64,000 nt of DNA from Streptantibioticus cattleyicolor NRRL 8057 = DSM 46488 (GCF_000240165.1 NC_017585.1:1612001-1676000), one strand, 5' to 3'; numbered from the stretch's first letter, positions 527 to 32,715 are shown. Numbers and translations: made by a program. Notes: generated by a model not told the origin, from the letters alone.

Positions 527-5674
<5,148 letters not shown>

Positions 5675-5675
5675 G

Positions 5676-8600: not shown

Positions 8601-10196
8601 GCCTGGCAGGAGGTCCTCGGGGTCGACGACATCGGCCGGGAGGACAACTTCTTCTCCCTCGGCGGCGACTCCATCCGCAGCGTCCAAGTGGCCGGAACAC
8701 TCCGCGAACGCGGCTACGAGCTGGACCTGGAGGCGTTCTTCACCACCCCCGTACTGGCCGAACTGGCACCCCAGCTGCGACGTGCCGAGGGGCCCGCCGA
8801 CACCGTCGGCCAGGCACCGTTCGCACTGGTCCCGCCGGCCGACCGCGCCTTCCTGCCCCCCGGGCTGGACGACGCCTACCCCATGACCGCCATGCAACTC
8901 GCCATGGTCTACCACATGGAGGCCGACCCGGGACGCCGCCCCTACCAGAACGTCAACAGCTACCGGATGTCCGGCGACTTCGACGAGAAGGCGTTCGCCG
9001 CCGCCCTCACCGAGGTCGTACACCGCCACCCGGTGCTGCGCACCAGCTTCGACCTGGTCTCCTTCAGCGAACCGATGCAACTGGTGCACCGGGACGTGTC
9101 GGTGCCCCTGGTCGTCGAAGACCTGCGCGGGGTGGGCGAGTCCGCACAGCTGGCCCGCGTCACCGACCTGGCGCTGCGCGAATGGGCCGTCGCCTTCGAC
9201 CTGGCCACCGCACCGCTGCTGCGCGTCCTCGTCCAACGCCTGGCCGAGGACGTCTACCAGCTCACCCTGGTCGAACACCACGCCATCCTGGACGGCTGGA
9301 GCTTCACCTCGGTCTTCGCCGAACTCCTGGAACGGCACGCCGCACTGCGCGACGACCCGGACAGCCCTCCGCCGCCGCCACCCGCCTCCCTCTTCCGCGA
9401 CTACGTGGCCCTGGAGGCGCGGGCCAAGGCATCAGCGACGTCGCGGGAGTTCTGGAAACGCCGGATGACCGGGGTCCGCCCGACCCGGCTGGGCACCGGG
9501 CGGCACACGGCGGGACGCGGCGCCGACACCGGCGTGCTGGAACGCACCCTGCCGGCCGCGCTCGCCGCCCGCGTGCCGTCGTTCGCCGCCGCCAACGGGG
9601 TCGGCGCCAAGAGCGTCGCACTGGCCGCGCACGTGGCGGCGATCTCCCGGCTGGCCGGCACCCACGAGGTGGTCACCGGGCTGACCGTCAACGGCAGGCT
9701 GGAGGACGGTGCGGGCACCGAGGCCCGTGGTGTCTTCCTCAACACCGTCCCGCTGCGCGTACCGCTCGACGGACACACCTGGACCTCGCTGGTGCGTGCG
9801 GTGCACCAGCAGGAGAGCGAGATCACGCCGCACCGCAGGACACCGTACAGCGAGATCGCCAGGCACCTGGCCGATCCCACCCTGGACTGCAGCTTCACCT
9901 TCAACCGGTTCCACGCACTGGGCCGCCTCGCGGAGGGGCGGACCCGCATCGTGGACCCGCGGCTCGGCGTGGAGCCGACGGTGCGCCGGGAACCCAACCA
10001 CTTCGCGCTGAACGTGGCGTTCGTCCAGGACCCGGCGTCCGACCGGTCGATGCTGATCGTGGACAGCGCGGACACCGCCGTCACCACCGGACAACTCCAC
10101 GGCTACGTCGCCGACTTCTTCGCGGCCATCCAGCACATGACCGAAGCACCGGACGGCTTCGTCACCACGTGGCGGGGCGGGGAGGGGACCCGATGA
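5676..10196 (+). CDS. Non-ribosomal peptide synthetase, C-A-PCP-C
   Basis: A 1506-aa second assembly-line protein. Domains: condensation (about 15-440, HHIVWDE from 146), adenylation (about 472-955, FTSGSTGRPKG), carrier (GGDSI, Ser999), and a second condensation domain at the C-terminus (about 1050-1495, intact HHAILDG from 1201). The adenylation pocket reads D-F-W-S-V-G-M-I-H, close to the threonine code, so Thr should follow the Ser loaded by the upstream protein. There is no thioesterase or reductase domain; the terminal condensation domain would have to release the chain onto an amine or alcohol, cyclise it, or hand it to an unseen partner. Both condensation domains that act between modules have Glu where the motif usually has Gly (HHxxxDE). 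Start is the ATG two bases after the previous stop, with GAGGTGAGG before it; its stop overlaps the MbtH start. Confidence 0.95.
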   Translation: MSASWQPITRAGETTAPLSSGQRSLWFLDRWAPGTATYNLPWVRRLRGRLDPAAVERALHGVVARHEALRTVFSAALGEPRQVVRPEVVVPFTTHDLTADPDPESHAARLLHDVVRRPFDLERGPLLRGCLLRTGPDRWILAVVVHHIVWDELSTSVFERELSEFYAAAEHDRPPALEPLPVQFADYARWQRERMTGAAFERQLTYWRDRLDGAPASLALPTDRRRPATQTFHGSTATVPLPEGLLDRARDLARREGATGFMVLLAAFAALVHRHTGQDDLVIGTPVAGRDRLELEGLLGYFVNMLALRIDTGTQPAFRHLLERVRDGVLEDFDHQDVPFDAVVDRVLPDRSGGRSPLVQVVFGYHDGRGAESLRLADAVASPMPIDTGTAKFDLIWSVCDEDAGARVEVEYNTDLFDEATVVRMARRWMRLLEGVLADPGVGIGVVDLLTDEDHAVVQPVAAPRVPAGPRLHEAFERVAAEHPGRTAVTHGDEHLTYTELNARANRLARYLRSRGVERGDRVGLCLERGPAQVEAVLAVLKAGAAYVPVNPADPAERQEVVFGDARVRLVLRDEDVAGAVASGSWSPENLSLAGSADDSAYVIFTSGSTGRPKGVEVAHRNVTALFDAVAGRFAFGADDVWTAFHSYAFDFSVWETWGALLHGGRLVVVPLPVARAPERFAELLVRERVTVLSQTPSALAQLTSASAGLPVPLEDLRWVVLGGEALQPHHVAAWFERAKAPAARLCNMYGITETTIHVTAHQIESAHAFQHSVIGRALPHLSVAVLDPHGAPVPIGVVGEMVVGGAGVAKGYVGNPELTAQRFAPGPVPGDTTPWYRTGDLARWRPDGTLEYHGRGDDQVKIRGFRIEPGEIRHALLAHPRIQDCVVVAHQDPDTPPHLVAYVVGEAGPAEVRTFLGARLPAHLVPSVIMPLDRLPLTSNGKVDRRALPRPRADVGRGTRHTPPESDAERLIAEAWQEVLGVDDIGREDNFFSLGGDSIRSVQVAGTLRERGYELDLEAFFTTPVLAELAPQLRRAEGPADTVGQAPFALVPPADRAFLPPGLDDAYPMTAMQLAMVYHMEADPGRRPYQNVNSYRMSGDFDEKAFAAALTEVVHRHPVLRTSFDLVSFSEPMQLVHRDVSVPLVVEDLRGVGESAQLARVTDLALREWAVAFDLATAPLLRVLVQRLAEDVYQLTLVEHHAILDGWSFTSVFAELLERHAALRDDPDSPPPPPPASLFRDYVALEARAKASATSREFWKRRMTGVRPTRLGTGRHTAGRGADTGVLERTLPAALAARVPSFAAANGVGAKSVALAAHVAAISRLAGTHEVVTGLTVNGRLEDGAGTEARGVFLNTVPLRVPLDGHTWTSLVRAVHQQESEITPHRRTPYSEIARHLADPTLDCSFTFNRFHALGRLAEGRTRIVDPRLGVEPTVRREPNHFALNVAFVQDPASDRSMLIVDSADTAVTTGQLHGYVADFFAAIQHMTEAPDGFVTTWRGGEGTR

Positions 10197-10372
10197 GCGA
10201 GCGGCAACCGCCGGCCACCTACACCGTGGTGGTCAACGACGCCGGCCAGTACTCGGTGTGGCCCGTCCACCGGGCGGTGCCCGGCGGCTGGCGTGAGGTC
10301 GGCGTCCGCGGTGACCGGGACAGCTGCCTCGACCATGTCGAGAAGGTATGGGCCGGCCCGCGTCCCGCCTGA
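10193..10372 (+). CDS. MbtH-like protein
   Basis: A 59-aa protein with the MbtH family signature: a YTVVVND start, QYSVWP, PGGWREVGVRG and a CLDHVEKVW end, including the conserved tryptophans. MbtH proteins bind adenylation domains and help them fold and work; no catalytic role of its own is expected. Its ATG overlaps the stop of the upstream NRPS (ATGA), so it is translationally coupled and very likely serves the three adenylation domains of this operon. The length is slightly below the usual 65-75 residues, but the whole core is present. Confidence 0.95.
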   Translation: MSERQPPATYTVVVNDAGQYSVWPVHRAVPGGWREVGVRGDRDSCLDHVEKVWAGPRPA

Positions 10373-10410
10373 CACCCGCCCCGCCGCACCCACAACCCGA
10401 GGAGTCAGTC

Positions 10411-11085
10411 ATGTCCCGCCAGAAAGGCACCGGACCCGGTGCGTTCAGCCCCGAGGGCGACCCCGTCGAGCTGTACTCGATCCTGCGTGCCGGACGGACC
10501 CCACGCGTGGTGGACGGCGCGCTGCCACGCCACGCCTCGGTGCTGGAGCTCGGGGCCGGGACCGGGCGCCTCACCCACCCGCTGATCGCCCTGGGCCACC
10601 AGGTGGTCGCGGTCGACCACAGCGCCGAGATGCTGGCCAGGATCGAGGGGGCCGAAACTGTCCACGCCGAGATCCCGGACCTGCGGCTCGACCGCACCTT
10701 CGACGCCGTGGTGCTCGGCTCCTGCCTGGTCAACCTCACCGACGCCGAGGTGCGCTACGAGATGATGGCCACCGCCCGCCGCCACGTCCGCCCCGGCGGC
10801 AGCGTCCTGATCGAACGCGCACTGCCCGAGTGGTTCACCGGCGTCGGCGAACCCCGGGTCTGGGACGACATCACCGCCACCTTGCTGAAGGTGGACCAGC
10901 TCACCCCCGACCTGCTGCGCGCGGTGATGGAGTACCGCTGGCAGGACCGGCGTTGGACCCACCTCCAGATCGTCCAGTTCCTCGACGAGGGCACCCTCGA
11001 CACCTACCTGGAGGCGGTCGGGCTGCGCCGCAAGGAGTGGCTCACCGAGGACACCTCCTGGCTCGCCGCCTCCCCCGTCGACTGA
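10411..11085 (+). CDS. SAM-dependent class I methyltransferase of the NRPS operon
   Basis: A 224-aa soluble methyltransferase. Motif I VLELGAGTGRLT (about residues 45-56), the acidic VVAVDHS that binds the SAM ribose, and VRPGGSVLIE (post-motif III) give a Rossmann-fold SAM enzyme. It lies 38 bp after mbtH on the same strand, so it probably methylates the peptide or a building block; whether on N, O or C cannot be told from the sequence. The ATG at 10411 is chosen over an earlier in-frame ATG at 10348 because GAGGAG lies just before it and the earlier start would overlap mbtH. Confidence 0.9.
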   Translation: MSRQKGTGPGAFSPEGDPVELYSILRAGRTPRVVDGALPRHASVLELGAGTGRLTHPLIALGHQVVAVDHSAEMLARIEGAETVHAEIPDLRLDRTFDAVVLGSCLVNLTDAEVRYEMMATARRHVRPGGSVLIERALPEWFTGVGEPRVWDDITATLLKVDQLTPDLLRAVMEYRWQDRRWTHLQIVQFLDEGTLDTYLEAVGLRRKEWLTEDTSWLAASPVD

Positions 11086-11174
11086 CGGCCGGCCCGGCAC
11101 GGCCGGTCGACGATCCGCCCGCCGCTCCCCCCGGAATCCGGCCTGGACCCGTCCCACGTAAGCGAGGCGTCTTC

Positions 11175-11957
11175 GTGCACACTTCCCGAACGATCCCCCG
11201 GACCGAGGGAGACTGGTTCTGGCTGCCGGACCACCGCCCGCACGCCGCCGTCCGGCTGCTCTGCTTCCCGCACGCGGGCGGTGACGCCACCGCCTTCACC
11301 ACGCTCGGCCGGCTGCTGCCCGAGGAGATCGAGGTGTGGGGGGTGCGGATGCCCGGGCGGGGCGGCCGGGCCCGCGACCCCTACCCGGAGAGCTTCGAGG
11401 ACCTGGTCCAGGCGGTCGCCGACGCCGCGCTGCCCCACCTCGACCGGCCCTACGCCGTCCTCGGCCAGAGCGTCGGCGCCCTGGTCGGCTACGAGGCGGC
11501 CCGCAAGCTCAGCGCCCAACTCAACCCCACCGCCTGCTTCGTCATCGGGTTCGCGCCCCCGCACACCTGGCGCGAACCGCCCGGTTCCGGCGGCGAGGAC
11601 GACGCCCGCGAACTGGCCGACTTCATGCTCCGCAACGACGAACGCGCCGGCGCGGTCGTCACCCACCCAGCACTGGGCGAGATGGCGCAACGCGCGCTCC
11701 TGGCCGACATGGGCCTGGCCCGCACCTACCGGGACGCCGGCACCGGCCCACTGGACTGCCCCGTCCAGCCCGTCCTCGGAGCCGACGACGAGGCGGTGAC
11801 CGCTGGCGAGATGGCGGAGTGGAAACGATGCTTCACCGGCAGCCGGCCGCTGGAGGTGGTGGAGGCCGGACACCTGGTGCTCCAGTCCGGCGAGGCCGCC
11901 GTACGGCAGGTGGGCGCCGTCGTCCAGGACGTGCTGCTGCCGTCCCTGTACCAGTGA
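11175..11957 (+). CDS. Type II thioesterase
   Basis: A 260-aa alpha/beta hydrolase of the stand-alone thioesterase family that clears misprimed or stalled carrier proteins in NRPS and PKS systems. Visible features: LLCFPHAGGDATAF oxyanion region near residue 30, nucleophile GQSVGA (Ser99), acid in LGADDEAV, and catalytic His in EAGHLVLQ close to the C-terminus. It is fourth of the accessory set in the NRPS operon, 89 bp after the methyltransferase. Start is a GTG with AAGCGAGG upstream. As neither NRPS protein carries an integrated thioesterase, a product-releasing role in trans is possible but is not the usual role of this family. Confidence 0.92.
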   Translation: MHTSRTIPRTEGDWFWLPDHRPHAAVRLLCFPHAGGDATAFTTLGRLLPEEIEVWGVRMPGRGGRARDPYPESFEDLVQAVADAALPHLDRPYAVLGQSVGALVGYEAARKLSAQLNPTACFVIGFAPPHTWREPPGSGGEDDARELADFMLRNDERAGAVVTHPALGEMAQRALLADMGLARTYRDAGTGPLDCPVQPVLGADDEAVTAGEMAEWKRCFTGSRPLEVVEAGHLVLQSGEAAVRQVGAVVQDVLLPSLYQ

Positions 11958-11991
11958 GCCACCGCCGACGGCGGCAGACTTGAGGAGCAGC

Positions 11992-13203
11992 ATGAACACC
12001 GTAACCGGCGTGACCACGTTCCCCGACCTGACCGACCCCGCGTTCTGGGCACGCGACGACAGCCACGCGGTCCTTCGTGAGCTGCGCCGCCGATCGCCGT
12101 TGTGGCGACTGGAGTCGGAGGCGGAAGGGCCGCTGTGGTGTGTGCTGTCGCACGCGCTGGCCAACGAGGTGCTGGGCGACGCGGCCCGGTTCAGCTCGGA
12201 ACGCGGCTCACTGCTGGGCACCGGCCGGGACCGGGCGCCGGCCGGCGCGGGCAAGATGATGGCGCTCACCGACCCGCCACGCCACCGGGACCTGCGCGGC
12301 CTCGTCCTGCCGTTCTTCTCCAAGCGCAAGGCGGCCGAACTCGGCGCACGCGTCGCCGACCTGACCCGCCAGGTGGTACGCGACGCGCTGGGGACCGCGC
12401 GCACCGACTTCGTCCGGGACATCAGCACGACGGTCCCGCTGACCGTCATGTGCGACCTGCTCGGCGTCCCGGACGAGGACCGCGACCACGTGGTGGCCAT
12501 GTGCGACCGCGCGTTCCTCGGCGACACCCCCGAGGAACGCTCAGAGGCACACCAGCAACTGCTGCCCTACCTGTTCGCCCTCGGTCTGCGCCGCCGGACC
12601 GACCCCCGCGACGACATCATCAGCCAACTGGTCACCCACGAGGTGGACGGCCGGCGTCTCCCGCTGGACGAGGCCCTGCTCAACTGCGACAACATCCTGG
12701 TCGGAGGGGTGCAGACGGTACGCCACACCTCGACCATGGCGATGCTCGCGCTGACCCGCCACCCGCACGCCTGGCAGGCCATGCGCGCGGACGGCTACGA
12801 CCCGGAAACCGGCGTCGAGGAACTGCTGCGCTGGACCTCGGTCGGCCTGCACGTACTGCGCACCGCCCGGCACGACACCGAACTCGCCGGACATCACATC
12901 CGGGCCGGGGACCGCGTGGTCGTCTGGACCCCGGCCGCCAACCGGGACGAAGCCGAGTTCCACCACCCCGACGACCTCCTCCTCGACCGCACCCCCAACC
13001 GTCACCTGGCCTTCGGCTGGGGCCCCCACTACTGCATCGGCGCCCCCCTGGCCCGCGTGGAACTCGCCTCGCTCTTCGCCGCGTTGACCGAAGCCGCCGA
13101 ACACGTCGAAGTCCTGGAACCCCCGGTACCCAACCGGTCCATCATCAACTTCGGCCTCGACGCCCTCGTCGTCCGGCTCCACCCCCGAGGGGCGGCCGGC
13201 TGA
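11992..13203 (+). CDS. Cytochrome P450 of the NRPS operon
   Basis: A 403-aa bacterial class I P450. The heme-binding loop FGWGPHYCIGAPLAR carries the axial Cys348; the K-helix ExxR motif is EELLR. The I-helix reads GGVQT (238-242), so the usual acid of the A-G-x-D/E-T motif is Gln241. Such changes are known in P450s that act on carrier-bound substrates or do unusual chemistry, but that is inference here. It would oxidise the peptide or a carrier-bound amino acid, using ferredoxin partners encoded elsewhere. ATG at 11992 follows GAGGAG; a TTG four codons earlier is in frame but less well placed. Last gene of the operon, facing the LysR gene tail to tail. Confidence 0.95.
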   Translation: MNTVTGVTTFPDLTDPAFWARDDSHAVLRELRRRSPLWRLESEAEGPLWCVLSHALANEVLGDAARFSSERGSLLGTGRDRAPAGAGKMMALTDPPRHRDLRGLVLPFFSKRKAAELGARVADLTRQVVRDALGTARTDFVRDISTTVPLTVMCDLLGVPDEDRDHVVAMCDRAFLGDTPEERSEAHQQLLPYLFALGLRRRTDPRDDIISQLVTHEVDGRRLPLDEALLNCDNILVGGVQTVRHTSTMAMLALTRHPHAWQAMRADGYDPETGVEELLRWTSVGLHVLRTARHDTELAGHHIRAGDRVVVWTPAANRDEAEFHHPDDLLLDRTPNRHLAFGWGPHYCIGAPLARVELASLFAALTEAAEHVEVLEPPVPNRSIINFGLDALVVRLHPRGAAG

Positions 13204-21143: not shown

Positions 21144-21890
21144 TCAGTACGGGAAGTCACGGCGCGACTGGTACTGCTTGCCCCCGAGCAGTCGCACCAC
21201 GATGTCCGACGGGTTGGTGAGCGCTCTCAATTGGGCGCGCATGTCTTCCTGCGGGACGCAGAAGGTGTGGGTGTAGGTGACGAGGAGGGCGGACCTCAGT
21301 GCTGTGGTGCGGTTGGGGCGGGAGGTGTGCCACCAGGCGCCGTCGGCGAAGATCGCGCTGCCGCGGGGGCCGGTGAGGATCTCGCCGTCGTCGCACCAGG
21401 AGTCGCCCATGTCGGGCAGGCGGTCGGCCCGGTGGGAACCGGGGATGCCGGCGGTGGCGCCGTTGTCTTCGGTGAAGTCGTCGAGGAACCAGATGCATTG
21501 GCCGGCGAGGGGGATGGCCGGCCATGGGGGTGTGAGGGTCCAGTAGGGGTGGTCGGCGTGCCAGTACTGCTCGACCGAGCCGGGCCACAGCGCGTTCGCG
21601 CTGAACGTCGAGCAGATCAGGTCCTCGCTCAGGTAGCGCCGCCAGACCGCGAGGACGAGCGGGTGCACCAGGGCTTCGGAGAACACCGGGTCCTTGACCA
21701 GGAGGTGCAGGACGCGCTGGTGACCGCTGGAGTGCAGATTGCGTCCCTTCTCCGCGTGCAGCAGGCGTTCCAGGGCCGTCCGCATGCGGTCGACGGTCGG
21801 TGCGGGCAGCAGGTTCTCGACGACCACGTAGCCGCGCTCGCCGATGGTGCGCACCGTCGAGTCGACCAGGTCGAGTTCTGTCGTCGTCAT
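21144..21890 (-). CDS. PhyH-family Fe(II)/2-oxoglutarate dioxygenase of the RiPP operon
   Basis: A 248-aa non-heme iron oxygenase of the phytanoyl-CoA dioxygenase superfamily. The iron ligands appear as HAD (His111, Asp113, in EQYWHADHPYW) and the distal His188 (in WWHTS), with Arg199 as candidate 2-oxoglutarate anchor. PhyH proteins hydroxylate or halogenate carrier-bound or free substrates. It is the last intact gene of the RiPP operon, 20 bp after the TfuA-YcaO gene, so the substrate is probably the modified peptide. HAD rather than HAG or HAA at the second ligand position argues for hydroxylation rather than halogenation. ATG has GGAGAA upstream. Confidence 0.9.
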   Translation of the reverse strand: MTTTELDLVDSTVRTIGERGYVVVENLLPAPTVDRMRTALERLLHAEKGRNLHSSGHQRVLHLLVKDPVFSEALVHPLVLAVWRRYLSEDLICSTFSANALWPGSVEQYWHADHPYWTLTPPWPAIPLAGQCIWFLDDFTEDNGATAGIPGSHRADRLPDMGDSWCDDGEILTGPRGSAIFADGAWWHTSRPNRTTALRSALLVTYTHTFCVPQEDMRAQLRALTNPSDIVVRLLGGKQYQSRRDFPY

Positions 21891-21910
21891 GGCGTTTCTC
21901 CGGACGGGGG

Positions 21911-24517
21911 TCAGGACCAGCGGGGCAGGAGGTCGCGAAGGAGCGCCAGGCGGGCGCGTTCTCCGGTGGCGAAGGGGTTGTTGGACTCCAGGCCGGGCAC
22001 CATGACCCGGACGACGTGCGCGGGTTCGGTCTCCGGACACGTCAGGTCGAGTACCGGAACGTGCGCCAGACCGGCGTCACCCACCCGCCGCAGCGCCCAC
22101 CACAGGTCGTCGAGGACGTCGTCGCTGGTCAGGCCCGGCGCCAGCGGGGCCGGCACGATGTCCGGGTCGAGCCAGAACCAGGCGTCGTCGTGCGCGATGG
22201 GGCGTGGCCTCTCATGGCGGCCGAGGCTGCGGGCCTTGATCGTGAGGTCTTCCCTGCCTCCCGCCACCAGGCAGGCGATCGACTGCGCGGCCTCCAGCAG
22301 CGCCATTTCGACCGCCGTGCCGGGATCCGGATGGGTGCCGTAGCCCTCGGAGCGGTTCAGATCGCGCCACACGGTCGCCATGAACGTCGGGATCCTGACA
22401 TCCGCCGTGATGTCGAGGACCCGGACGACGTGCCCGACCCGCCGCAGCCGCTCCGCCACCTCACGTGCCCCGTCCGGGACGGTGTCGAGGTCCACGAAGC
22501 GGAACGGCGGCGCCCCGGTCCGGCCGGGGTTGACCATGGCGATCTCCGCGAGACGCTGGGCGTGCCGCTCGACGTACTCGCACAGCCCGTGCAGCAGCGC
22601 CTCCTCCCGGGAGAAGCCGGACCCCAGGCCGTTGGTGGCGATGACCTTGCGCGCGCCTCGCGGGCTGAAGCAGATGTCGTGCGGGCCGCGTTCGAGCCGC
22701 AGCAGGTCGAGGGGGACGAGCACCGTCCGGCCGGTGAGGACGTCCGGGCAACGCACCCAGGTCAGCGGGGAGCCGGGGGTGTAGCCGGTGTCGTAGGGCA
22801 GGGCGAGGCTCGTCGGGTCGACGGCGTCGCCGGTCAGCTCGCGGTAACTGCCTTCGACGAGGTCGCCGGCGCAGGGCACCCACTGCTCCTGCGCCCACTT
22901 CTCCAACTCCTCCATGACGCTGCCGATGTGCGCGCCGTCCTCGGTGAGCCCCTTGCCGCTCCCGTACGTGCTGGACCAGCAGCCGTCGGGGCGGGCGGCC
23001 TGGGCGATCTGGATGCCGCCGATGTCCCCGAGTTCGCCGACCATGCCGATCCGGGTGATCCCGATCGTCTTCGCCAGCCGGGTCGCGTGGTCGCGCGCCT
23101 CGGCCAGCGGCAGGCAGAAGCGCCGTTCGCCCGGGGGCTTCTGGCGGTGTCGCAGCGGCAGGTCCGGATGGGGCACCGGCCGGCCGGCGGGCACGGTTCG
23201 TCCCGCCATCGTCGCGGCCAGCGCCCGTCCCGCGCGGCGTGCCCGTGCGAGCCGGTGGACGAAGGCGTCCTGCGCGGCGCGGTCGTCGTACCCCCACCGA
23301 GCCCACCGCCGCCGCATGGCTTCCACGTCGAAGGCAAGGTTCGCCTTGCACAACACCCGCCACGCCTCGGTGAGTTCCTCGGCGGAGGGCGGACGGGGGT
23401 CCCGCTCGGCGAACAGGTTGAGCCCGCCCAGCCGCATCACCTCCCGCTTGAGCGACGCGTGGTGCAGGAACAGCGCCACGCGAAGGGACCGCCGGAACGC
23501 GTCGGGATCGGCCTTCGCCCAGGCCATCAGCCCGGCTTCCGCGACGGCCTCCGCCTCGGCCCGGTGGTTCAGCGTGGGCACGTCGATGCCGAGGTCCGCG
23601 AGGGTGACGCGGGCTTCCTCCGAGCTGAGCCACCCCCACCGGCGCACGGCGGTCCGGAACAGCGCCTGTGCCGCGGGCACGTCGACCGGTTGGGCCAGTT
23701 CGGGCGGTACGGGGTGGGCGGCGCGCGCCCACGGTTCCAGCTTTCCGGTGAACGTGAGGAACGCGAAGAGTTCGTCGTCGACCCGGTCGCCGCTCTCCCA
23801 GATCAGCGCGGTGCCGGTGGTGACGGAACCGGGGGCGGGGCCGGGAACCGTTCGCGCCGCTGTCGCGCGGGACGCCGACCCTCGCGGGAGCACCGCGGTC
23901 GCCGCGCCGATCGCCTCCAGGACCGACTGGGCGTCCCGGTGCTTGAGGTCGTGACCGGCCAGCATGGCGACGAGGTCTTCACCGTCGGCCCGTTCCAGCA
24001 GGCCGGCGCGGTGGGCGATGCGCCGGTAGGTGCGTGCCTTGAACGGCAGTTCGAGCGCGGCCGAAAGCAGCCGCTCGGCGGCGGGTGCGTCGATCGTGCC
24101 CGAGCGGTGGAGGCGGTCGACCGCGTAGCGCACGTTCACCGAAGGCACCGTCAGCGGGGCGCCGGTCTCCTCGTCGAACAGCAACGCGACCTCGTCGTCC
24201 CGCGTCACGACGCCGTCGCGGTACCAGGCGTACACCAGCCCGACGCCGATGACACCGGGCACCTCGGTCGCGCGCAACGCGCCCATGCTGCCGCCGCCGT
24301 ACACCACGACCCCCCGCTCGACCGCCGCGCGCACCTCGGCCGGGCTGACGGAGAGGGTCTGCTCGAAGACACCATCGATGATCCCGACGACCTGACCGGC
24401 CGGGATCGCCTCGAGGTCGCCGCGCCGGACCGGGCGGCGGTAGTCGGCGTCCAGGATCGGGCGGGCCTCGGCGAGCGGCATCGACGGTCCGAGGAAGACG
24501 ATCGGCCGTGGGCTCAC
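21911..24517 (-). CDS. TfuA-YcaO fusion protein, probable thioamide synthetase
   Basis: An 868-aa protein. Residues 1 to about 190 are a TfuA domain: IVFLGPSMP, GIIDGVFEQ, GGGSMGALRATEV and YRDGVVTRDDEVALL. A helical linker follows to about 450. Residues 455-868 are a YcaO ATP-dependent domain with SREEALLHGLCEYVERHA and AVEMALLEAAQSIACLVAGG, the motifs that bind ATP. There is no C-terminal PxPxP tail, which azoline-forming YcaO enzymes usually have, and no ThiF-like partner gene. In known systems YcaO with TfuA converts a backbone amide to a thioamide, TfuA helping sulfur delivery; usually these are two proteins. GTG start overlaps the stop of the dioxygenase gene (GTGA). Expected to act on the precursor at 29092-29370. 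Confidence 0.93.
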   Translation of the reverse strand: MSPRPIVFLGPSMPLAEARPILDADYRRPVRRGDLEAIPAGQVVGIIDGVFEQTLSVSPAEVRAAVERGVVVYGGGSMGALRATEVPGVIGVGLVYAWYRDGVVTRDDEVALLFDEETGAPLTVPSVNVRYAVDRLHRSGTIDAPAAERLLSAALELPFKARTYRRIAHRAGLLERADGEDLVAMLAGHDLKHRDAQSVLEAIGAATAVLPRGSASRATAARTVPGPAPGSVTTGTALIWESGDRVDDELFAFLTFTGKLEPWARAAHPVPPELAQPVDVPAAQALFRTAVRRWGWLSSEEARVTLADLGIDVPTLNHRAEAEAVAEAGLMAWAKADPDAFRRSLRVALFLHHASLKREVMRLGGLNLFAERDPRPPSAEELTEAWRVLCKANLAFDVEAMRRRWARWGYDDRAAQDAFVHRLARARRAGRALAATMAGRTVPAGRPVPHPDLPLRHRQKPPGERRFCLPLAEARDHATRLAKTIGITRIGMVGELGDIGGIQIAQAARPDGCWSSTYGSGKGLTEDGAHIGSVMEELEKWAQEQWVPCAGDLVEGSYRELTGDAVDPTSLALPYDTGYTPGSPLTWVRCPDVLTGRTVLVPLDLLRLERGPHDICFSPRGARKVIATNGLGSGFSREEALLHGLCEYVERHAQRLAEIAMVNPGRTGAPPFRFVDLDTVPDGAREVAERLRRVGHVVRVLDITADVRIPTFMATVWRDLNRSEGYGTHPDPGTAVEMALLEAAQSIACLVAGGREDLTIKARSLGRHERPRPIAHDDAWFWLDPDIVPAPLAPGLTSDDVLDDLWWALRRVGDAGLAHVPVLDLTCPETEPAHVVRVMVPGLESNNPFATGERARLALLRDLLPRWS

Positions 24518-25701
24518 CGTGCGACCTCCTCGATCTCACCGGCCCGGGCCCGGCGCAGCAGGCCATCGGCGACCAGCTTGCGCACCACGTCCACCACGGC
24601 GTCCGTTCCCAGCGCGCCGGGCAGGTCGGCGGCGCGCACCACGGGTGCCTTCGCGACGTGCTCTAACGCGGCCAGGACGTCGATCGGGCCCCGCACCGCG
24701 CCGCCCGGGAAGTGGATCGTCGCGGAGCCGCCGTCCTCGGTCACGTGGCAGTCCGCGCCCCGAGCCCGGACCAGCCAGGTGTTCTCGTCGATGTCGTCCA
24801 GCCCGTCGTGCCGGCCCAGCCCGCCGTCCGGCAGGACCACCCGCCGCGTGGTTCGCCGCGCGGCCACCCCGCCGAGCAGGCCCGGCAAGGCGGTGCGCAC
24901 GTCCGGGGAGGCGAGCAGCTCGGCCAGGCCCGAGGCGAGAGCGGCGGCATCGGCCGTGCGCGCGCGGGGAACGTGCGCGTCCAGACCGGGCAGGGCCGCC
25001 ACGACCTCGTCGAGGACGTCCCGCCACCGCAGCGGGAACAACCGGAGCGTCACATGCAGGGAGCGCTCGGCCCCGGTCCGGGCCGCGTGGCCGCAGTGCT
25101 GAGGTATGTACAGCACGTCTCCCGGCCCGAGCGAGAACTCCCGGAACCGCAGTCGCGCCCACTCCCGCGGCGGGACCGCGCCCGGCCGTGGCGGGCCGGC
25201 CCGTTCCTCCACCATCCAGGACTTGCGCCCCTCCATGTGGAGGACGAGGCTGCCGTGCTCGTCGCGATGGGGTGCGAAGCCCTGGGCGGAGCGCGGCGTG
25301 GCGAAGACGTGGGCGCCGGCCGGTTCGCGGAGGGGGACGCCGTGGTCGGCCAGGTCGAGTTCGACGCTTCGGCACAGGTCGGCCAGGGGCGGTGAGAGCC
25401 GGTGCGCCTTGGTCAGGTACAGCGTTTCGCCGCCCTCGAACGCCCGCCGGACCTGCCGCAGGTCGAGCATCCCGTCGGCGTCGATGAACACGGCCGGAAG
25501 ACAACGCCGTTCACCACCCCGGGCGAGGTGGAGCACGCCCTTGTGGGCGTGGTGCAACGCGCCGAGCATCGCCTCGAAGCCGTCGAGGTCGAGCAACGAG
25601 GCCCCCGCGGCGGCGCCGGGGAAAAGACACGGGTCAAGGGCCCATACGGTGTCGAGGAAGTCCGTCACGGTCGTCGGGCGGAGCAGATCCGCGAGCGTCA
25701 C
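24514..25701 (-). CDS. JmjC-like (cupin_4) Fe(II)/2OG hydroxylase
   Basis: A 395-aa protein of the ribosomal-oxygenase-like cupin family. The iron site is visible as QGFAPHRDEHG (His145, Asp147) followed by MEGRKSW and the distal His205 in IPQHCGHAA, then SLHVTL. The C-terminal third is the helical/winged-helix part usual in this family. Known relatives hydroxylate amino acid side chains in proteins, so hydroxylation of the RiPP precursor is the natural inference. The GTG start overlaps the radical SAM stop (GTGA), and its own stop overlaps the TfuA-YcaO start. Codon 346 is a rare TTA. Confidence 0.92.
   Translation of the reverse strand: MTLADLLRPTTVTDFLDTVWALDPCLFPGAAAGASLLDLDGFEAMLGALHHAHKGVLHLARGGERRCLPAVFIDADGMLDLRQVRRAFEGGETLYLTKAHRLSPPLADLCRSVELDLADHGVPLREPAGAHVFATPRSAQGFAPHRDEHGSLVLHMEGRKSWMVEERAGPPRPGAVPPREWARLRFREFSLGPGDVLYIPQHCGHAARTGAERSLHVTLRLFPLRWRDVLDEVVAALPGLDAHVPRARTADAAALASGLAELLASPDVRTALPGLLGGVAARRTTRRVVLPDGGLGRHDGLDDIDENTWLVRARGADCHVTEDGGSATIHFPGGAVRGPIDVLAALEHVAKAPVVRAADLPGALGTDAVVDVVRKLVADGLLRRARAGEIEEVAR
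24664..24666 (-). promoter_or_regulatory. TTA leucine codon in the RiPP-operon JmjC-like gene
   Basis: In frame with the dioxygenase (codon 346, Ala-Leu-Glu context). In Streptomyces this makes translation depend on the bldA tRNA, and as the gene is translationally coupled to both neighbours the effect could spread through the operon. Confidence 0.7.
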
Positions 25702-27251
25702 GAACCCTCCAGCCCGGTTTCGGGCCGGACCTGTTGTGCGGGCTCGGGGACCGCTCGGTAGCGGCGGACGAGGAAGCGGCGCCTGCGGACCTTCTCCTCG
25801 GGCGTGCAGGTGGTGATCAGCCTGCTGCCGGTGTGCTTCTCGTCCTCCACCCGGCAGCTGCCGCCGCAGATGTTGCGCAGGTCGCAGGAGCTGCAGCCCT
25901 TCCGGTGGTCGACCCCGAAGGCCGCGGCCGTGCGCCCGAGATACTTGGTGATCTCGCCGAGGGGCAGCTGGTCGATGTGTCCGAGTGCGCCGGACATCAG
26001 GTGGCAGGGGTACACCAGTCCGTCGGGTGCGACGACGAGCTGTTCGGCGTATCCGCAACCGCTGATCTTCTGCACCATGTTGGGCCCGTGCACCCGGTCG
26101 TCCTCGGCGCGCAGCCCGCCCAGCAGTTCGTCGACCCAGGCACGCACCTGGTCGGTGTCCAGGTCGTGGTCGAGGTCGGTGCCCCGCCCGTGCGCCATGG
26201 CGCCGTAGCTGATGCGGAACCGCAGATCGGTGCCGCGCCACTGCTCGATGAAGCCGGGCAGTCCCGCTTTGATCGCCGGCCAGTTGTTGACCATGATGGT
26301 GGTGCTGACCCGGGTCTGCACCCCGGCGTCGAGCAGCAGCCGGATGGCACGCGTGGCCCGGCGGAAGGAGTGGCGGCCACGGATCGCGTCGTGGATCTCC
26401 GCCGTGGGCCCGTCGATGCTGATCTGGACGATGTCGGTGTAGCGGACGATGTCGTCGAGGTGTTTGGGCACGGCCATGCCGTTGGAGAACAACGTGACTT
26501 CCAGCCCGAGTTCGTGAGCGCGTCGCATCACCGGGACGCAGCCCTCGTGCACTAGCGCCTCGCCGCCGGTGAGCAGCAGCTTCTGCCCGCCGTTCGCGGC
26601 GAAGTCCTCCACCAGCTGGATCCAGCGCTCGGTGGGCAGTTCACCGTCCTTGGGCAGGAACGGGCTGGAGTTGGTGTAACAGTGCACGCACTGGAGCTGG
26701 CAGCGGTGGGTGAGGTGGAACCGGGCGAACATGTGCGGCCGGACCTGCTTGACGGAGTGGTAGCCGCGGATGCCGCGGACCATCCCGGCGAAGGCGAGCC
26801 GCCCGACGAGCTTGGCCATCGCCTCCGTCGCCGCCTCCGGGGCGAGCCCGCGGTTGCGGTGCATCTCACGCGCGGCGTCGGCGGGTGTCGTGCCCGCGGT
26901 GAGGAGGGTGAGCAGTTCGTGGTCGATGTCGTCGGCGACCAGCAGCTTTCCGTCCTCGACGGCGATCCAGAGGTGGTCGTCGTCGACCTCGTGGTGGACG
27001 AGCGAGGAGACGAACGGGATCGGCTCCGTCGTGGACAGGTCGTAGATGTCACGGGTGCCGTCCGCGGACCGGCGCGCGGGACGTTCCTCGTCCGTGGCGG
27101 CGGGGGGAGCAGGGTCCTCCAGGCCGACGGCGCCGAACGGGGCCCGGTCCGGTGCCCCGAAGCGGGGGATCGGCTGCGCCTCGTCGGGTCCGGAGAGTGC
27201 CGGGCCTCCCTGCCAGGCACGTAGGGTCAGCAGAGTCTCTTTGCCGCTCAT
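25698..27251 (-). CDS. Radical SAM/SPASM RiPP maturase with PqqD-like domain
   Basis: A 517-aa enzyme. Residues 1-75 look disordered. Residues 83-160 form a PqqD-like recognition domain (VHHEVDDDHLWIAVED, HELLTLLTAGTTPADAA, GRLAFAGMV), which binds leader peptides. The radical SAM core has the cluster motif CQLQCVHC (Cys184, Cys188, Cys191) and the TGGEALVHEG and ISIDGPTAEIHDAIRG elements. The C-terminus is a SPASM domain for auxiliary Fe-S clusters (CGY...PCHL, then CSSCDLRNICGGSC and a last Cys). It should bind the precursor leader and make a C-C, C-S, C-O or epimer modification; which one is not readable. It is the only leader-recognition domain I see in the operon. Good GAGAGGAA before the ATG; 33 bp after the upstream gene. 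Confidence 0.94.
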   Translation of the reverse strand: MSGKETLLTLRAWQGGPALSGPDEAQPIPRFGAPDRAPFGAVGLEDPAPPAATDEERPARRSADGTRDIYDLSTTEPIPFVSSLVHHEVDDDHLWIAVEDGKLLVADDIDHELLTLLTAGTTPADAAREMHRNRGLAPEAATEAMAKLVGRLAFAGMVRGIRGYHSVKQVRPHMFARFHLTHRCQLQCVHCYTNSSPFLPKDGELPTERWIQLVEDFAANGGQKLLLTGGEALVHEGCVPVMRRAHELGLEVTLFSNGMAVPKHLDDIVRYTDIVQISIDGPTAEIHDAIRGRHSFRRATRAIRLLLDAGVQTRVSTTIMVNNWPAIKAGLPGFIEQWRGTDLRFRISYGAMAHGRGTDLDHDLDTDQVRAWVDELLGGLRAEDDRVHGPNMVQKISGCGYAEQLVVAPDGLVYPCHLMSGALGHIDQLPLGEITKYLGRTAAAFGVDHRKGCSSCDLRNICGGSCRVEDEKHTGSRLITTCTPEEKVRRRRFLVRRYRAVPEPAQQVRPETGLEGS

Positions 27252-27284
27252 CGTGTTCCTCTCGGGCCGGACCGGGGATCGGGG

Positions 27285-29069
27285 TCAGCGCAGCCGGGGG
27301 CCGGCGACCCATGCCACCAGCGCGCGACGCAGGCCCTCGGTGACAGGCGTGACGCAGTGGTCGATCAGGGACGGGAAGACCAGCACCGAACCCCGCTCGC
27401 GCGGCAACTCCTCGGTCTCCACGCCGAACATCCGCAGCGCCCCGCCCTGGTACGAGGCCGGATCCGACAGCTGGACGATGACCGTGATCTTGCGGGGGGA
27501 ATCGAGCTGGTCGTGGCTGTAGTCGTTGTGCCGGTGGAAGTGCCCGTTGCCAGGGAGGTATTCGACGTATTGCGGAGCACGCGTGATGCCCGTCAGGTCG
27601 AACCCGTAGACGGTGCGCGCGGCCTCCCGTGCCACCTCCTCGACCAGCCGGTACACCCACGCCGTGCGCGGCCCCTTGGGTACGTGCCGCATCTGGGCGC
27701 GCCGATGGCTGGGGTGGCCGGTCTCGTCCACCGTGGTCGGTGCGGTCAACGGGAGTTCCCGGCAGGCGGCGACGAGGTCGTCGCACTCGGCGGCGGAGAG
27801 GGGTTCCCGCAGGCGCATCCAACCGAGGTGGTGGCCGGCTGCCGGGCCCTTGTCCCGTACCAGCGTCAGGTCGCGTGTGCGGACCGCCGCGGGCACCGGC
27901 TCCTGCGCCGCCGCCGTCTCCCGCGCGGCGGGGATCGCCGCCGGGACCGCCGGCTCGGGCCCCGCTGCCTTCTCCACCGGGTGGAAGATGTGGTGTCTGA
28001 CCAGGATCCGGGTCAGTTCGACGGCGTCGTAATCGGCTCCGACCGCCGGAAGCTGCCGGGGTACGAAGGACTCCGCCTTCGCCACGTAGTCGATCACGGG
28101 TTGGAGCCGGCCGTCGAGACGCAGCGTGCCGCCGGGGAAGGTCAGGCGGGCGAGCCCGTTCTCGCTGCCGGATTCGCTCGGCATCAGCGGCACCCTGCCA
28201 ACGAGGGTGTCTGCTTCGACCGTGGCAGCGGCGGCGTCCGCGAGCAGTTGTCCGCCGGGCAGCGGGTCGAGCCCGGCGATCCAGCGGATGCGGCGGCTGC
28301 GCAGGTAGCCGGGGACGTCCAGCTCCGGGAGGCCGGGCAGCGTGGACCCGGCGGTGTCGGGCCCGGTGACCGAGCGACGGAACGGCTCGTGCGCCCGCAG
28401 CATGTCCGCCAGGGCGTCCGCCCACGACAAGGTGTGCAGGCCGATCGTGAGGTGGAGCGACGCCTCGTCGGTGGTGTGCGCGACGTGGGGGAAGCCGGCG
28501 GGGATCGACAGGACGTCGCCGGCCTCCAACGTCGCGGAGACCACCGCCTCCGGCCCCTGCGACCCGGGGCCGAACACCTCCCACCGCTTGCTGCCGTGCA
28601 GTTGGACGACGAGCACCGAATGATCGTCGTGGTGCCGGCCGAAGCCTTGCGCCCGCGGCGGCGTGAGGTACGCGTTGGCGCTCACCGGATCGCCCGGCAG
28701 CAGACCGAGCCGGAGCAGGTCGAACTCGATGCCCCGGCACAACTCACCGACCGGTGGACAACGCGAGGGAAGGCACGACAGCAGAAGCGTCGCACCGGAC
28801 CGGTAGGCGGCCAGCACATGCCGTCCGGGAACCCGGTCGGCACGGTCGGCGACGACCGGCCTGGCCTGGCCGTTCTGCACGACGCTCAGCTCGGCGCCGC
28901 CACCGCACGCCAACCGCTCGAAGTCCGCGAGCGTGAACAGCCGCCCGACGAGAGGCACCGCCGCCCCATGGAGCAGCAGCGCCTCTCGTTCCCAGCTCGT
29001 GCGGAGGAAAGCCGCGATGTCCCGGTCACCGAGGACCGCGGACAGCCCCCACTTCTCGGTGTCCACCAC
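27285..29069 (-). CDS. Bifunctional dioxygenase: JmjC-like domain fused to prolyl-4-hydroxylase-like domain
   Basis: About 594 aa with two separate Fe(II)/2OG catalytic units. The N-terminal cupin_4/JmjC-like half carries QGFGRHHDDH (first His and Asp near 146-148), LHGSKRW and a distal His in IPAGFPHVAH, then SLHLTIGL. A Pro/Ala-rich linker at about 365-395 leads to a C-terminal 2OG-Fe(II) oxygenase with FHRHNDYS (HxD), YQGGALRMFG, and FPSLIDHCVTPVTEGLRRALVAWV containing the distal His and the Arg for 2-oxoglutarate. Both iron sites look intact, so two hydroxylations of one substrate are plausible. The gene lies about 20 bp after the precursor stop. GTG at 29069 has GGAG six bases upstream; the TTG at 29075 sits too close to that site. 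Confidence 0.92.
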   Translation of the reverse strand: MVDTEKWGLSAVLGDRDIAAFLRTSWEREALLLHGAAVPLVGRLFTLADFERLACGGGAELSVVQNGQARPVVADRADRVPGRHVLAAYRSGATLLLSCLPSRCPPVGELCRGIEFDLLRLGLLPGDPVSANAYLTPPRAQGFGRHHDDHSVLVVQLHGSKRWEVFGPGSQGPEAVVSATLEAGDVLSIPAGFPHVAHTTDEASLHLTIGLHTLSWADALADMLRAHEPFRRSVTGPDTAGSTLPGLPELDVPGYLRSRRIRWIAGLDPLPGGQLLADAAAATVEADTLVGRVPLMPSESGSENGLARLTFPGGTLRLDGRLQPVIDYVAKAESFVPRQLPAVGADYDAVELTRILVRHHIFHPVEKAAGPEPAVPAAIPAARETAAAQEPVPAAVRTRDLTLVRDKGPAAGHHLGWMRLREPLSAAECDDLVAACRELPLTAPTTVDETGHPSHRRAQMRHVPKGPRTAWVYRLVEEVAREAARTVYGFDLTGITRAPQYVEYLPGNGHFHRHNDYSHDQLDSPRKITVIVQLSDPASYQGGALRMFGVETEELPRERGSVLVFPSLIDHCVTPVTEGLRRALVAWVAGPRLR

Positions 29070-29091
29070 GATCAACTCCGAACGGCACCGC

Positions 29092-29370
29092 TCAACAGCT
29101 CGGCCCGCCGATGTTGGAGAAACACCCGGTGCTCGCGGTGATCATGCCGAAGCTCTGGTTCTCCACCTCGACGTCGATGCTTTCGAGGGAGATGGACATC
29201 TTCCCCGGGACCGGCATCGCCTCGTCGGCCCCCTCCGTCCGGGGGCTTCGCGGTGTGGCCGGGGCCTGGTCGGCGTCGGTCAGCTCCACCAGCGGGCTGT
29301 CGACGCCTTCGTACACCTCGGCCACGATCTCTTTCTCGGCCAGCTGCGACGGGTTGGCGGGCTCGGGCAC
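29092..29370 (-). CDS. RiPP precursor peptide
   Basis: A 92-aa peptide with no enzyme-like features. The leader is acidic and Pro/Ala-rich (for example AEKEIVAEVYEGVDSPLVEL, residues 11-30), followed by a linker and a conserved-looking MSISLESIDVEVENQ (58-72). The last part, from Gly75 to the C-terminus, is small and polar: ITASTGC then FSNIGGPSC, with Cys83 and the C-terminal Cys92 the only cysteines. Thr78, Ser80, Thr81, Ser85, Asn86, Pro90 and Ser91 are candidate hydroxylation or heterocycle sites. It is the first gene of the operon, before five modification genes and with GAGGAG ahead of its GTG, so ribosome loading is strong. The cleavage site is unknown; a core of 16-18 residues starting near Gly75-Ile77 is my guess. 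Confidence 0.85.
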   Translation of the reverse strand: MPEPANPSQLAEKEIVAEVYEGVDSPLVELTDADQAPATPRSPRTEGADEAMPVPGKMSISLESIDVEVENQSFGMITASTGCFSNIGGPSC

Positions 29371-29840: not shown

Positions 29841-30365
29841 TCAGACACGCAGCTGCCGGAGCATGACGGTGAAGCTGGGTGCGCCCGGGAACGGCTGCCG
29901 GTCGCCGATCCGGCGGTAACCCCACGTCGCGTACAACGCCTCCACCTTCGGGTGCTCGGAGTCGACCAGGAGCACGGCCAGCGCCTCCGGCCGGCCCGCG
30001 ATCAGTGCCGCGTGGAGCTGCGCCGCGGCCCCGGTCTTCCGCCGGCGCGGGATCACCATCAGCTCGGAGACGGCGAACGTCGAGGCGTCCGCCGGTGGCG
30101 TGGGCAGATGTTCACGCCACCACTCACAGCCGGGCGGGGCCGGGGCCCCGTAGGCGAACCCGACCGGCTCCTCACCGTCGTAGCCGACGACACACGTGAA
30201 CCCCGGGTAGCCGCCCCAGCGATCGACGGACCCGGCGAAGTGCCGGCCGGCCTCGTCGTCCAACTCGTCCGCGTAGGCGCCCGCGTGCACGTCCATGAGC
30301 GTCTGCCGGATGCCCGGCAGGCCCTCGCGGCCGAACCGGCGAAGCGCGACGGGTGTGCGGCTCAA
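29841..30365 (-). CDS. GNAT-family N-acetyltransferase
   Basis: A 174-aa acetyltransferase. VSELMVIPRRRKTGAAAQLHAAL contains the acetyl-CoA pyrophosphate-binding loop (R/Q-x-x-G/A in a degenerate form), and VLLVDSEHPKVEALYATWGYRRIG is the C-terminal GNAT motif. The substrate is unknown. It lies upstream of the RiPP operon on the same strand but 470 bp away with a likely operon promoter between, so membership is doubtful; N-terminal acetylation of a peptide would be possible but is unsupported. The start is uncertain; TTG at 30365 has GGGAGC eight bases before it and the homology starts there. Confidence 0.8.
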   Translation of the reverse strand: MSRTPVALRRFGREGLPGIRQTLMDVHAGAYADELDDEAGRHFAGSVDRWGGYPGFTCVVGYDGEEPVGFAYGAPAPPGCEWWREHLPTPPADASTFAVSELMVIPRRRKTGAAAQLHAALIAGRPEALAVLLVDSEHPKVEALYATWGYRRIGDRQPFPGAPSFTVMLRQLRV

Positions 30366-30457
30366 GAGCTGCTCCCTTCGGTGTGGCGCCGATACCCGAC
30401 GCCCCGTCACCAAGGCGGCTGTGGTTTCTCGTCCCCGCCACGACAGCACGGTAAGGG

Positions 30458-31848: not shown

Positions 31849-32715
31849 TCACGGGTTGTCGGTCACCTGGAAGCCGGCGCCGTAGATGCCGGGGTGTGCG
31901 GTGTCGCGTGCCCGCAGGTCGGCGAGGATGTTCGCCGAGCTGGTGTAGACGTAGGGAGGGATGCCCAGGACCCTGGCCTTGGTGATCCCGGCCCAGGGGC
32001 CGGCCGCCTGGAAGCCGTTCGCGGAGGACGGGTAGGCGCTGCCGGGGACGTGCCATATCGCCGGGCCACCCGAGTCACCGGCTTGGTGCCCGGCCCAGGA
32101 CTGGTAGACGCCGTTGGAGTTGTTGGTGATGCGTCCGTAGAGAACGCCGAGTTGACCCGAGACCACCAGCTCGTTGTCGTTGTCGAGGGCGGCGCCGAGG
32201 AGGCGTTCGTTGTCCAGGGGCGGGGTCAGGGCGTTGGGGCTCGGCTGGCCGCCGGGCACCTCCAGCTCGCCCGTCTCCTTCAGGTACGGGCCCTGCGAGG
32301 AGAGCGTCACCGCCGGGACCAGCTCGATGATCATGTAGTCCTTGGTGGGGTGTCCCACCGTCGAGCCTTCCGGGTCCTTGAAGTACCGCACGTACCCGAT
32401 GGGTCCGAAACCGGCGTCGTTACGGTCGTAGACGGGTTGGACGTTCTCGGGGATCTCGCGGTCCGAGTACTGATGGCTGGGATCGGTCAGGCAGTGTCCT
32501 GCCGAAATCGCTATCTTCCGGCCGTACTTGTCGTGGCCGACCGCCCCGATGGTGCAGAACTCGTTGGAGGAGTTCGGGGGGAAGTAGATCTGCATCCCGT
32601 TGAAGACGCGCTTGCCTGAGTCGGCATGGGCGTCGGCCGTCCCCGTGACGCCGGTGACGGCCAGGAAGACCCCCAGCACACTGGCGAGTACGCCGAGACT
32701 TTTCCGTCTGCGCAT
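31849..32715 (-). CDS. Secreted trypsin-like serine protease (S1 fold)
   Basis: A 288-aa exported protease. The N-terminus is a signal peptide (MRRRKSLGVLASVLGVFLAV..., cleavage probably after ADAHA near 31). The catalytic triad is readable as SAGHC (His74), TKDYMIIEL (Asp126) and QAGDSGGP (Ser215). No long propeptide like that of streptogrisins is present, and no extra domains follow. Substrate specificity cannot be told. It could in principle mature secreted peptides, but nothing ties it to the RiPP operon. ATG after AAGGAC. The gene ends about 170 bp from the methyltransferase start. Confidence 0.9.
   Translation of the reverse strand: MRRRKSLGVLASVLGVFLAVTGVTGTADAHADSGKRVFNGMQIYFPPNSSNEFCTIGAVGHDKYGRKIAISAGHCLTDPSHQYSDREIPENVQPVYDRNDAGFGPIGYVRYFKDPEGSTVGHPTKDYMIIELVPAVTLSSQGPYLKETGELEVPGGQPSPNALTPPLDNERLLGAALDNDNELVVSGQLGVLYGRITNNSNGVYQSWAGHQAGDSGGPAIWHVPGSAYPSSANGFQAAGPWAGITKARVLGIPPYVYTSSANILADLRARDTAHPGIYGAGFQVTDNP

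Follow-up and report, generated by a model that had tools for sequence, protein, structure and literature searches.

A six-gene block on the 1.8-Mb megaplasmid pSCAT of the antibiotic producer Streptantibioticus cattleyicolor (Streptomyces cattleya) NRRL 8057 is, nearly certainly, an operon for the biosynthesis of a ribosomally synthesized and post-translationally modified peptide (RiPP). It lies on the minus strand at 21144-29370 of the 64,000-nucleotide stretch analyzed here (the window; NC_017585.1:1612001-1676000). In order of transcription, the genes encode a small precursor peptide, a double Fe(II)/2-oxoglutarate (2OG) oxygenase, a radical S-adenosylmethionine (SAM) enzyme, a JmjC oxygenase, a TfuA-YcaO fusion and a PhyH oxygenase (Table 1). 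Thus, a precursor with leader and conserved core is encoded beside modifying enzymes, as expected of a RiPP locus, and conservation establishes both the operon and its precursor. Intergenic gaps are ~16 bp (precursor/double oxygenase), 33 bp (double oxygenase/radical SAM) and 20 bp (TfuA-YcaO/PhyH), and 4-base GTGA overlaps join the radical SAM gene to the JmjC gene and the JmjC gene to that of the fusion. The reading frames are backed by GC content per codon position. A sequence-only reading, made by a model from the DNA alone, had proposed six minus-strand genes with gaps of at most 33 bp or GTGA overlaps, and this was confirmed in both place and order.

The precursor (MSISLESIDVEVENQSFGMITASTGCFSNIGGPSC, followed by the stop codon) ends in GCFSNIGGPSC, with Cys as its last residue. 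Homologues in three further organisms likewise lie next to these enzymes, and all four precursors end in GCxSNxGGPSC. This motif occurs exactly once per genome in three actinomycetes, and the reversed control pattern gave 0 matches. When the C-terminal 35 residues were used as the query against 72,556 plasmids (E≤10), the only matches were in S. cattleyicolor and Mycetohabitans endofungorum. Among the three actinomycete genes compared, dN/dS was ~0.16-0.42 over the C-terminal 35 codons and ~0.9-1.2 over the rest, values that are rough because the alignments are short. The contrast is clear, with purifying selection confined to the C-terminal part, and we therefore regard this as the functional part of the precursor. 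The sequence-only reading had picked out the Cys-ended 92-aa open reading frame (ORF) as the precursor, which is borne out: the core is shared between phyla and evolves under purifying selection. It had also named the lack of a conserved precursor in homologous operons as an objection; the shared ending and the selection on the C-terminal codons remove it.

Table 1 Features of the S. cattleyicolor operon and its possible accessory gene, in window coordinates.
Feature	Position	Strand	Evidence and remarks
Precursor gene, 92 aa; leader variable, C-terminus conserved	29092..29370	-	GTG start; GAGGAG upstream (ribosome-binding site)
Invariant core motif G-C-x-S-N-x-G-G-P-S-C-stop	29092..29127	-	Identical in all four precursors
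Double Fe(II)/2OG oxygenase; N-terminal JmjC (NO66/MINA/RoxA-like), C-terminal PKHD type	27285..29075	-	JmjC_2 1.4e-18; 2OG-FeII_Oxy_3 6.9e-14
RRE-radical SAM-SPASM peptide maturase (RRE, RiPP recognition element)	25698..27251	-	Radical_SAM 1.8e-24; SPASM 1.1e-3
Second JmjC oxygenase, 395 aa	24514..25701	-	JmjC_2 2.3e-15 to 4.4e-15; GTG start overlaps radical SAM stop
TfuA-YcaO fusion, 868 aa (TfuA ~6-203, linker region, YcaO ~480-845)	21911..24517	-	TfuA 9.5e-34; YcaO 3.2e-66
PhyH-family Fe(II)/2OG oxygenase, 248 aa	21144..21890	-	PhyH 1.5e-24
GNAT acetyltransferase, possible accessory gene	29841..30449	-	Upstream of operon; Acetyltransf_1

In Streptomyces wedmorensis and Actinomadura terrae, all six genes are present with order and strand unchanged, and the five enzymes are 72-88% identical at the protein level. 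Homology ends at the precursor and at the phyH end, and the flanks are unrelated among the three operons except for the GNAT gene, which A. terrae and S. cattleyicolor share (71% identical, same position) and which is absent beside the S. wedmorensis operon. Because the same six genes recur in order in two other genera with unrelated flanks, the arrangement is not due to chance. Two ATP-binding cassette (ABC) half-exporters are encoded directly upstream of the A. terrae operon. When a pair of radical SAM peptide patterns was run against 84,980 bacterial and archaeal genomes, the matches listed were led by S. wedmorensis at 84% and A. terrae at 82%, followed by proteins at ~30%; moderately distant members may be missed by such a scan. 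Sampling of 395 genomes of the family and 395 of the class gave no match to the operon beyond the query genome, and the radical SAM profile found only A. terrae itself in 300 genomes of its family. The PhyH profile found no relative in 398 Pseudomonadota genomes, which included no positive control, and none was found in the viral contigs searched.

A distant, rearranged cluster, from the betaproteobacterium M. endofungorum B60, was found by tblastn of plasmids with the JmjC protein. It is located on a 157-kb conjugative plasmid, with phyH and a 2OG oxygenase gene on one strand and the radical SAM gene, a small ORF and the JmjC gene on the other. Identities to the S. cattleyicolor proteins are 54-55% (PhyH), 54% (2OG, PKHD type), 48% (radical SAM) and 31% (JmjC), and the small ORF ends in MTSSDGCISNPGGPSC (GCISNPGGPSC) versus MITASTGCFSNIGGPSC in the S. 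cattleyicolor precursor. The cluster (locus 3071-10572) lies between IS5 and IS481 transposase genes, and this bracketing on a conjugative plasmid suggests that it is mobile. A plasmid search with TfuA-YcaO matched three Mycetohabitans records, all from M. rhizoxinica. We set these aside, as they come from a different cluster, in which TfuA and YcaO are separate proteins and a LanM enzyme is encoded.

Domains were assigned with Pfam and NCBIfam, and all scores were strong except that for SPASM, where the profile match is weak and the motif complete. The enzyme list of the sequence-only reading was correct: the Pfam domains are present, as are four 2OG domains with their triads, and the part described as PqqD-like is itself below Pfam detection. 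The radical SAM enzyme has CxxxCxxC at C184/C188/C191 and a complete seven-cysteine SPASM motif, CX11GX4C...CX2CX5CX3C...C. The Pfam PqqD profile did not match its N-terminal domain. A profile of that domain had as its best solved match the stand-alone lasso-peptide RRE TfuB1 (6jx3, a weak E of 9.5e-4), and we assign it as an RRE because of this match. The best curated model for the enzyme is the sactipeptide maturase StsB (6.1e-41), also the top curated family for the M. endofungorum protein, and its nearest solved relative is SkfB (6efn, 3.7e-26). With a radical SAM domain, an N-terminal RRE (weak but the best match) and SPASM/twitch clusters, it has the layout of the StsB/SkfB sactisynthases, which make streptosactin and sporulation killing factor; a short core that contains Cys is a further shared feature. 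Streptosactin is made by a SPASM sactisynthase and carries Cys-to-C-alpha bonds (PMC8172795). Its cluster differs in that it comprises a precursor, a radical SAM enzyme, a protease and regulators and is without TfuA-YcaO or 2OG oxygenases (PMC8172795). A further difference from StsB/SkfB systems is the Cys at the very end of the S. cattleyicolor precursor.

TfuA and YcaO occur together in a single protein, as in a TfuA/YcaO thioamidation system, and its closest curated models are the pair that thioamidates a glycine of McrA. Solved relatives include a TfuA (6xp8, 1.2e-38) and MJ1094 (6pe3, 2.5e-15). TfuA plus YcaO is also the combination of the thioamitides and thiovarsolins; unlike in these and in the McrA system, the two S. 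cattleyicolor domains are fused with an extra linker region. The thiovarsolins further differ by a VarO-like heme oxygenase, which this operon lacks. Thioamitide (thioviridamide-like) tailoring genes code for a decarboxylase, a HopA1-like protein and a phosphotransferase, and neither the six genes nor those flanking ORFs that were tested include any of them.

Four Fe(II)/2OG domains are encoded (two JmjC, one PKHD type matching 2OG-FeII_Oxy_3, one PhyH), each with an HxD...H facial triad that is kept in all orthologues. The PhyH protein is 84-88% identical among the actinomycete operons, with H111/D113/H188 invariant. Structural matches of the double oxygenase are NO66 (4e4h, 3.9e-16) and a PKHD hydroxylase (3dkq, 1.4e-3), and its JmjC domain is nearest to NO66 and MINA. 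NO66 and MINA hydroxylate ribosomal proteins. A RiPP precedent is BipG, a JmjC enzyme that hydroxylates ornithine in biphenomycin (PMC12707348). The ribosomal oxygenases (NO66, MINA, RoxA) and BipG share the JmjC domain and triad with the enzymes described here, and BipG acts on a RiPP precursor; unlike all of these, the S. cattleyicolor cluster has two JmjC enzymes, one being a fusion with a PKHD domain. A relative of the S. cattleyicolor JmjC proteins is encoded in a plasmid cluster of Pseudanabaena galeata (locus 2408-11179), along with LanM, Nif11-type precursors and a 2OG oxygenase. This cluster is another RiPP setting for this type of JmjC protein; we set the match aside as an operon relative because it sits in a LanM/NHLP cluster.

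Our overall reading, drawn from sequence comparison, is that the operon probably makes a crosslinked, oxidized, thioamide-bearing short peptide. From the nearest relatives (StsB/SkfB, the McrA-glycine thioamidation pair and NO66/MINA) and the BipG precedent, we infer thioether, thioamide and hydroxyl groups. In the radical SAM enzyme, the N-terminal RRE would bind the leader, and the SPASM-bearing part would oxidize the short C-terminal core (~TGCxSNxGGPSC) at backbone or side-chain positions. By analogy with SkfB/StsB-type enzymes, we lean slightly towards one or both conserved Cys being linked as thioethers. TfuA-YcaO likely swaps at least one backbone amide oxygen for sulfur, as judged from the McrA system, with a core glycine as the most plausible site. 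At least one hydroxylation of core side chains by the JmjC, PKHD and PhyH oxygenases is quite likely; Asn, Ser, Pro or the variable positions would be the targets. Leader removal and export may depend on enzymes encoded elsewhere, and A. terrae has the adjacent ABC exporter pair. The end product would be a short peptide with modifications, probably secreted and either antibiotic-like or able to bind metal.

Several observations weigh against this reading. No dedicated protease or exporter gene was found in the S. cattleyicolor operon, and AlphaFold models built from three-sequence alignments were unusable, with mean pLDDT of 40 for the radical SAM enzyme and 33 for TfuA-YcaO. A search that covered plasmids found no TfuA or YcaO match on that of M. 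endofungorum. Because this cluster keeps the precursor ending, the radical SAM enzyme and the oxygenases, thioamidation looks like an add-on and not the heart of the family. For the same reason, conservation of the GG pair cannot be credited to YcaO alone. The heavily hydroxylated, radical-modified thioamide peptide of the sequence-only reading is supported in part: the RiPP operon and its enzymes stand, the thioamide looks less central, and the proposed chemical groups are read from homology.

The radical SAM enzyme also falls short of the StsB family cut-off (140.7 versus 625 bits). Since the similarity is so far below the cut-off, its reaction may differ and yield epimerization or C-C or C-O links. 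If so, the Cys residues could be turned into thiazolines by YcaO or stay free as metal ligands, and the product would be a thioamide/thiol metallophore following a methanobactin-like logic. Many radical SAM/SPASM families score behind StsB, and the two Cys flank the core, one of them as a C-terminal residue that would be an awkward sactionine donor. We nonetheless consider this alternative unlikely: the best single family and structure matches are both sactisynthases, and the flanking ORFs tested contained neither a metal-uptake nor an MNIO gene. It is less probable still that TfuA-YcaO forms an azoline or amidine. YcaO enzymes are chemically diverse, and similarity to the SagD family is significant too (1.5e-30), but the McrA-glycine pair gives the best curated models, TfuA partners are tied to thioamidation (PMC8120280), and the search of the operon revealed neither an E1-like or Ocin-ThiF partner nor a dehydrogenase.

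The closest characterized homologues of TfuA-YcaO and the JmjC proteins act on McrA and on ribosomal proteins, which raises the idea that a housekeeping protein is the real substrate here, as McrA is for TfuA/YcaO and ribosomal L16 for RoxA, and that the small ORF is incidental. This is highly improbable, as three operons conserve the small ORF as their first gene and it is linked, with the same ending, to a distant fourth cluster. The rarity of the operon (the query genome alone among each set of 395) is also unlike a housekeeping modification.

A 2021 survey of thioamide-type clusters presents a Burkholderia thailandensis cluster with fused tfuA-ycaO and two radical SAM genes, for which a PhyH protein is named in the figure legend (PMC8120280, Fig. 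5A). This uncharacterized cluster resembles ours in combining the fusion, radical SAM and, by the legend, PhyH. It differs in having two radical SAM genes and in that JmjC and PKHD proteins go unmentioned in the consulted part of the survey (PMC8120280). In a 2019 survey of actinobacteria, three proteins with fused TfuA/YcaO were dropped from the tree (PMC6511847). Neither the JmjC/PKHD set nor a GCxSNxGGPSC precursor is described in the portions of PMC8120280 and PMC6511847 consulted. Our literature search, which had most subscription journals outside its coverage, found no paper that links such a product with any of these species. We found no characterized product with this set of enzymes. 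For the gene combination, however, the word undescribed, as used in the sequence-only reading, overstates the case, since the B. thailandensis cluster makes it only partly new. What we describe is an uncharacterized RiPP family, a variant of known RiPP machinery in which thioamidation is an optional module and 2OG oxygenases are unusually numerous for so short a core. A bolder proposal, which we put forward tentatively and with some doubt, is a new RiPP class defined by a ~ten-residue core, GCxSNxGGPSC, that receives a thioether macrocycle by radical chemistry, a thioamidated glycine and multiple JmjC/PKHD/PhyH hydroxylations, in which TfuA-YcaO is optional and which has spread horizontally between actinomycetes and fungus-associated betaproteobacteria.

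If the proposed chemistry is true, one very short peptide would bear three kinds of modification, a combination that we have not seen reported. The family would also be a source of JmjC, PKHD and PhyH enzymes that hydroxylate peptides, a role for which documentation in RiPP biosynthesis has only just begun. The invariant core makes the products and the order of assembly directly testable by coexpression. Because S. cattleyicolor is a well-studied antibiotic strain, the product may already sit in existing extracts.

Three further loci were recorded. About 2.5 kb upstream of the precursor, the region 31849-32679 has a weak serine proteinase match (Rv1815, 8e-7, far below the cut-off); that its product is the leader protease is conceivable but unsupported. 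A separate nonribosomal peptide synthetase (NRPS) cluster lies on the plus strand at 641-13203, ~8 kb from the operon, and encodes two NRPS proteins, a thioesterase and a P450. A second YcaO gene is located outside the window, at 1803493-1804491 near the end of the same megaplasmid.

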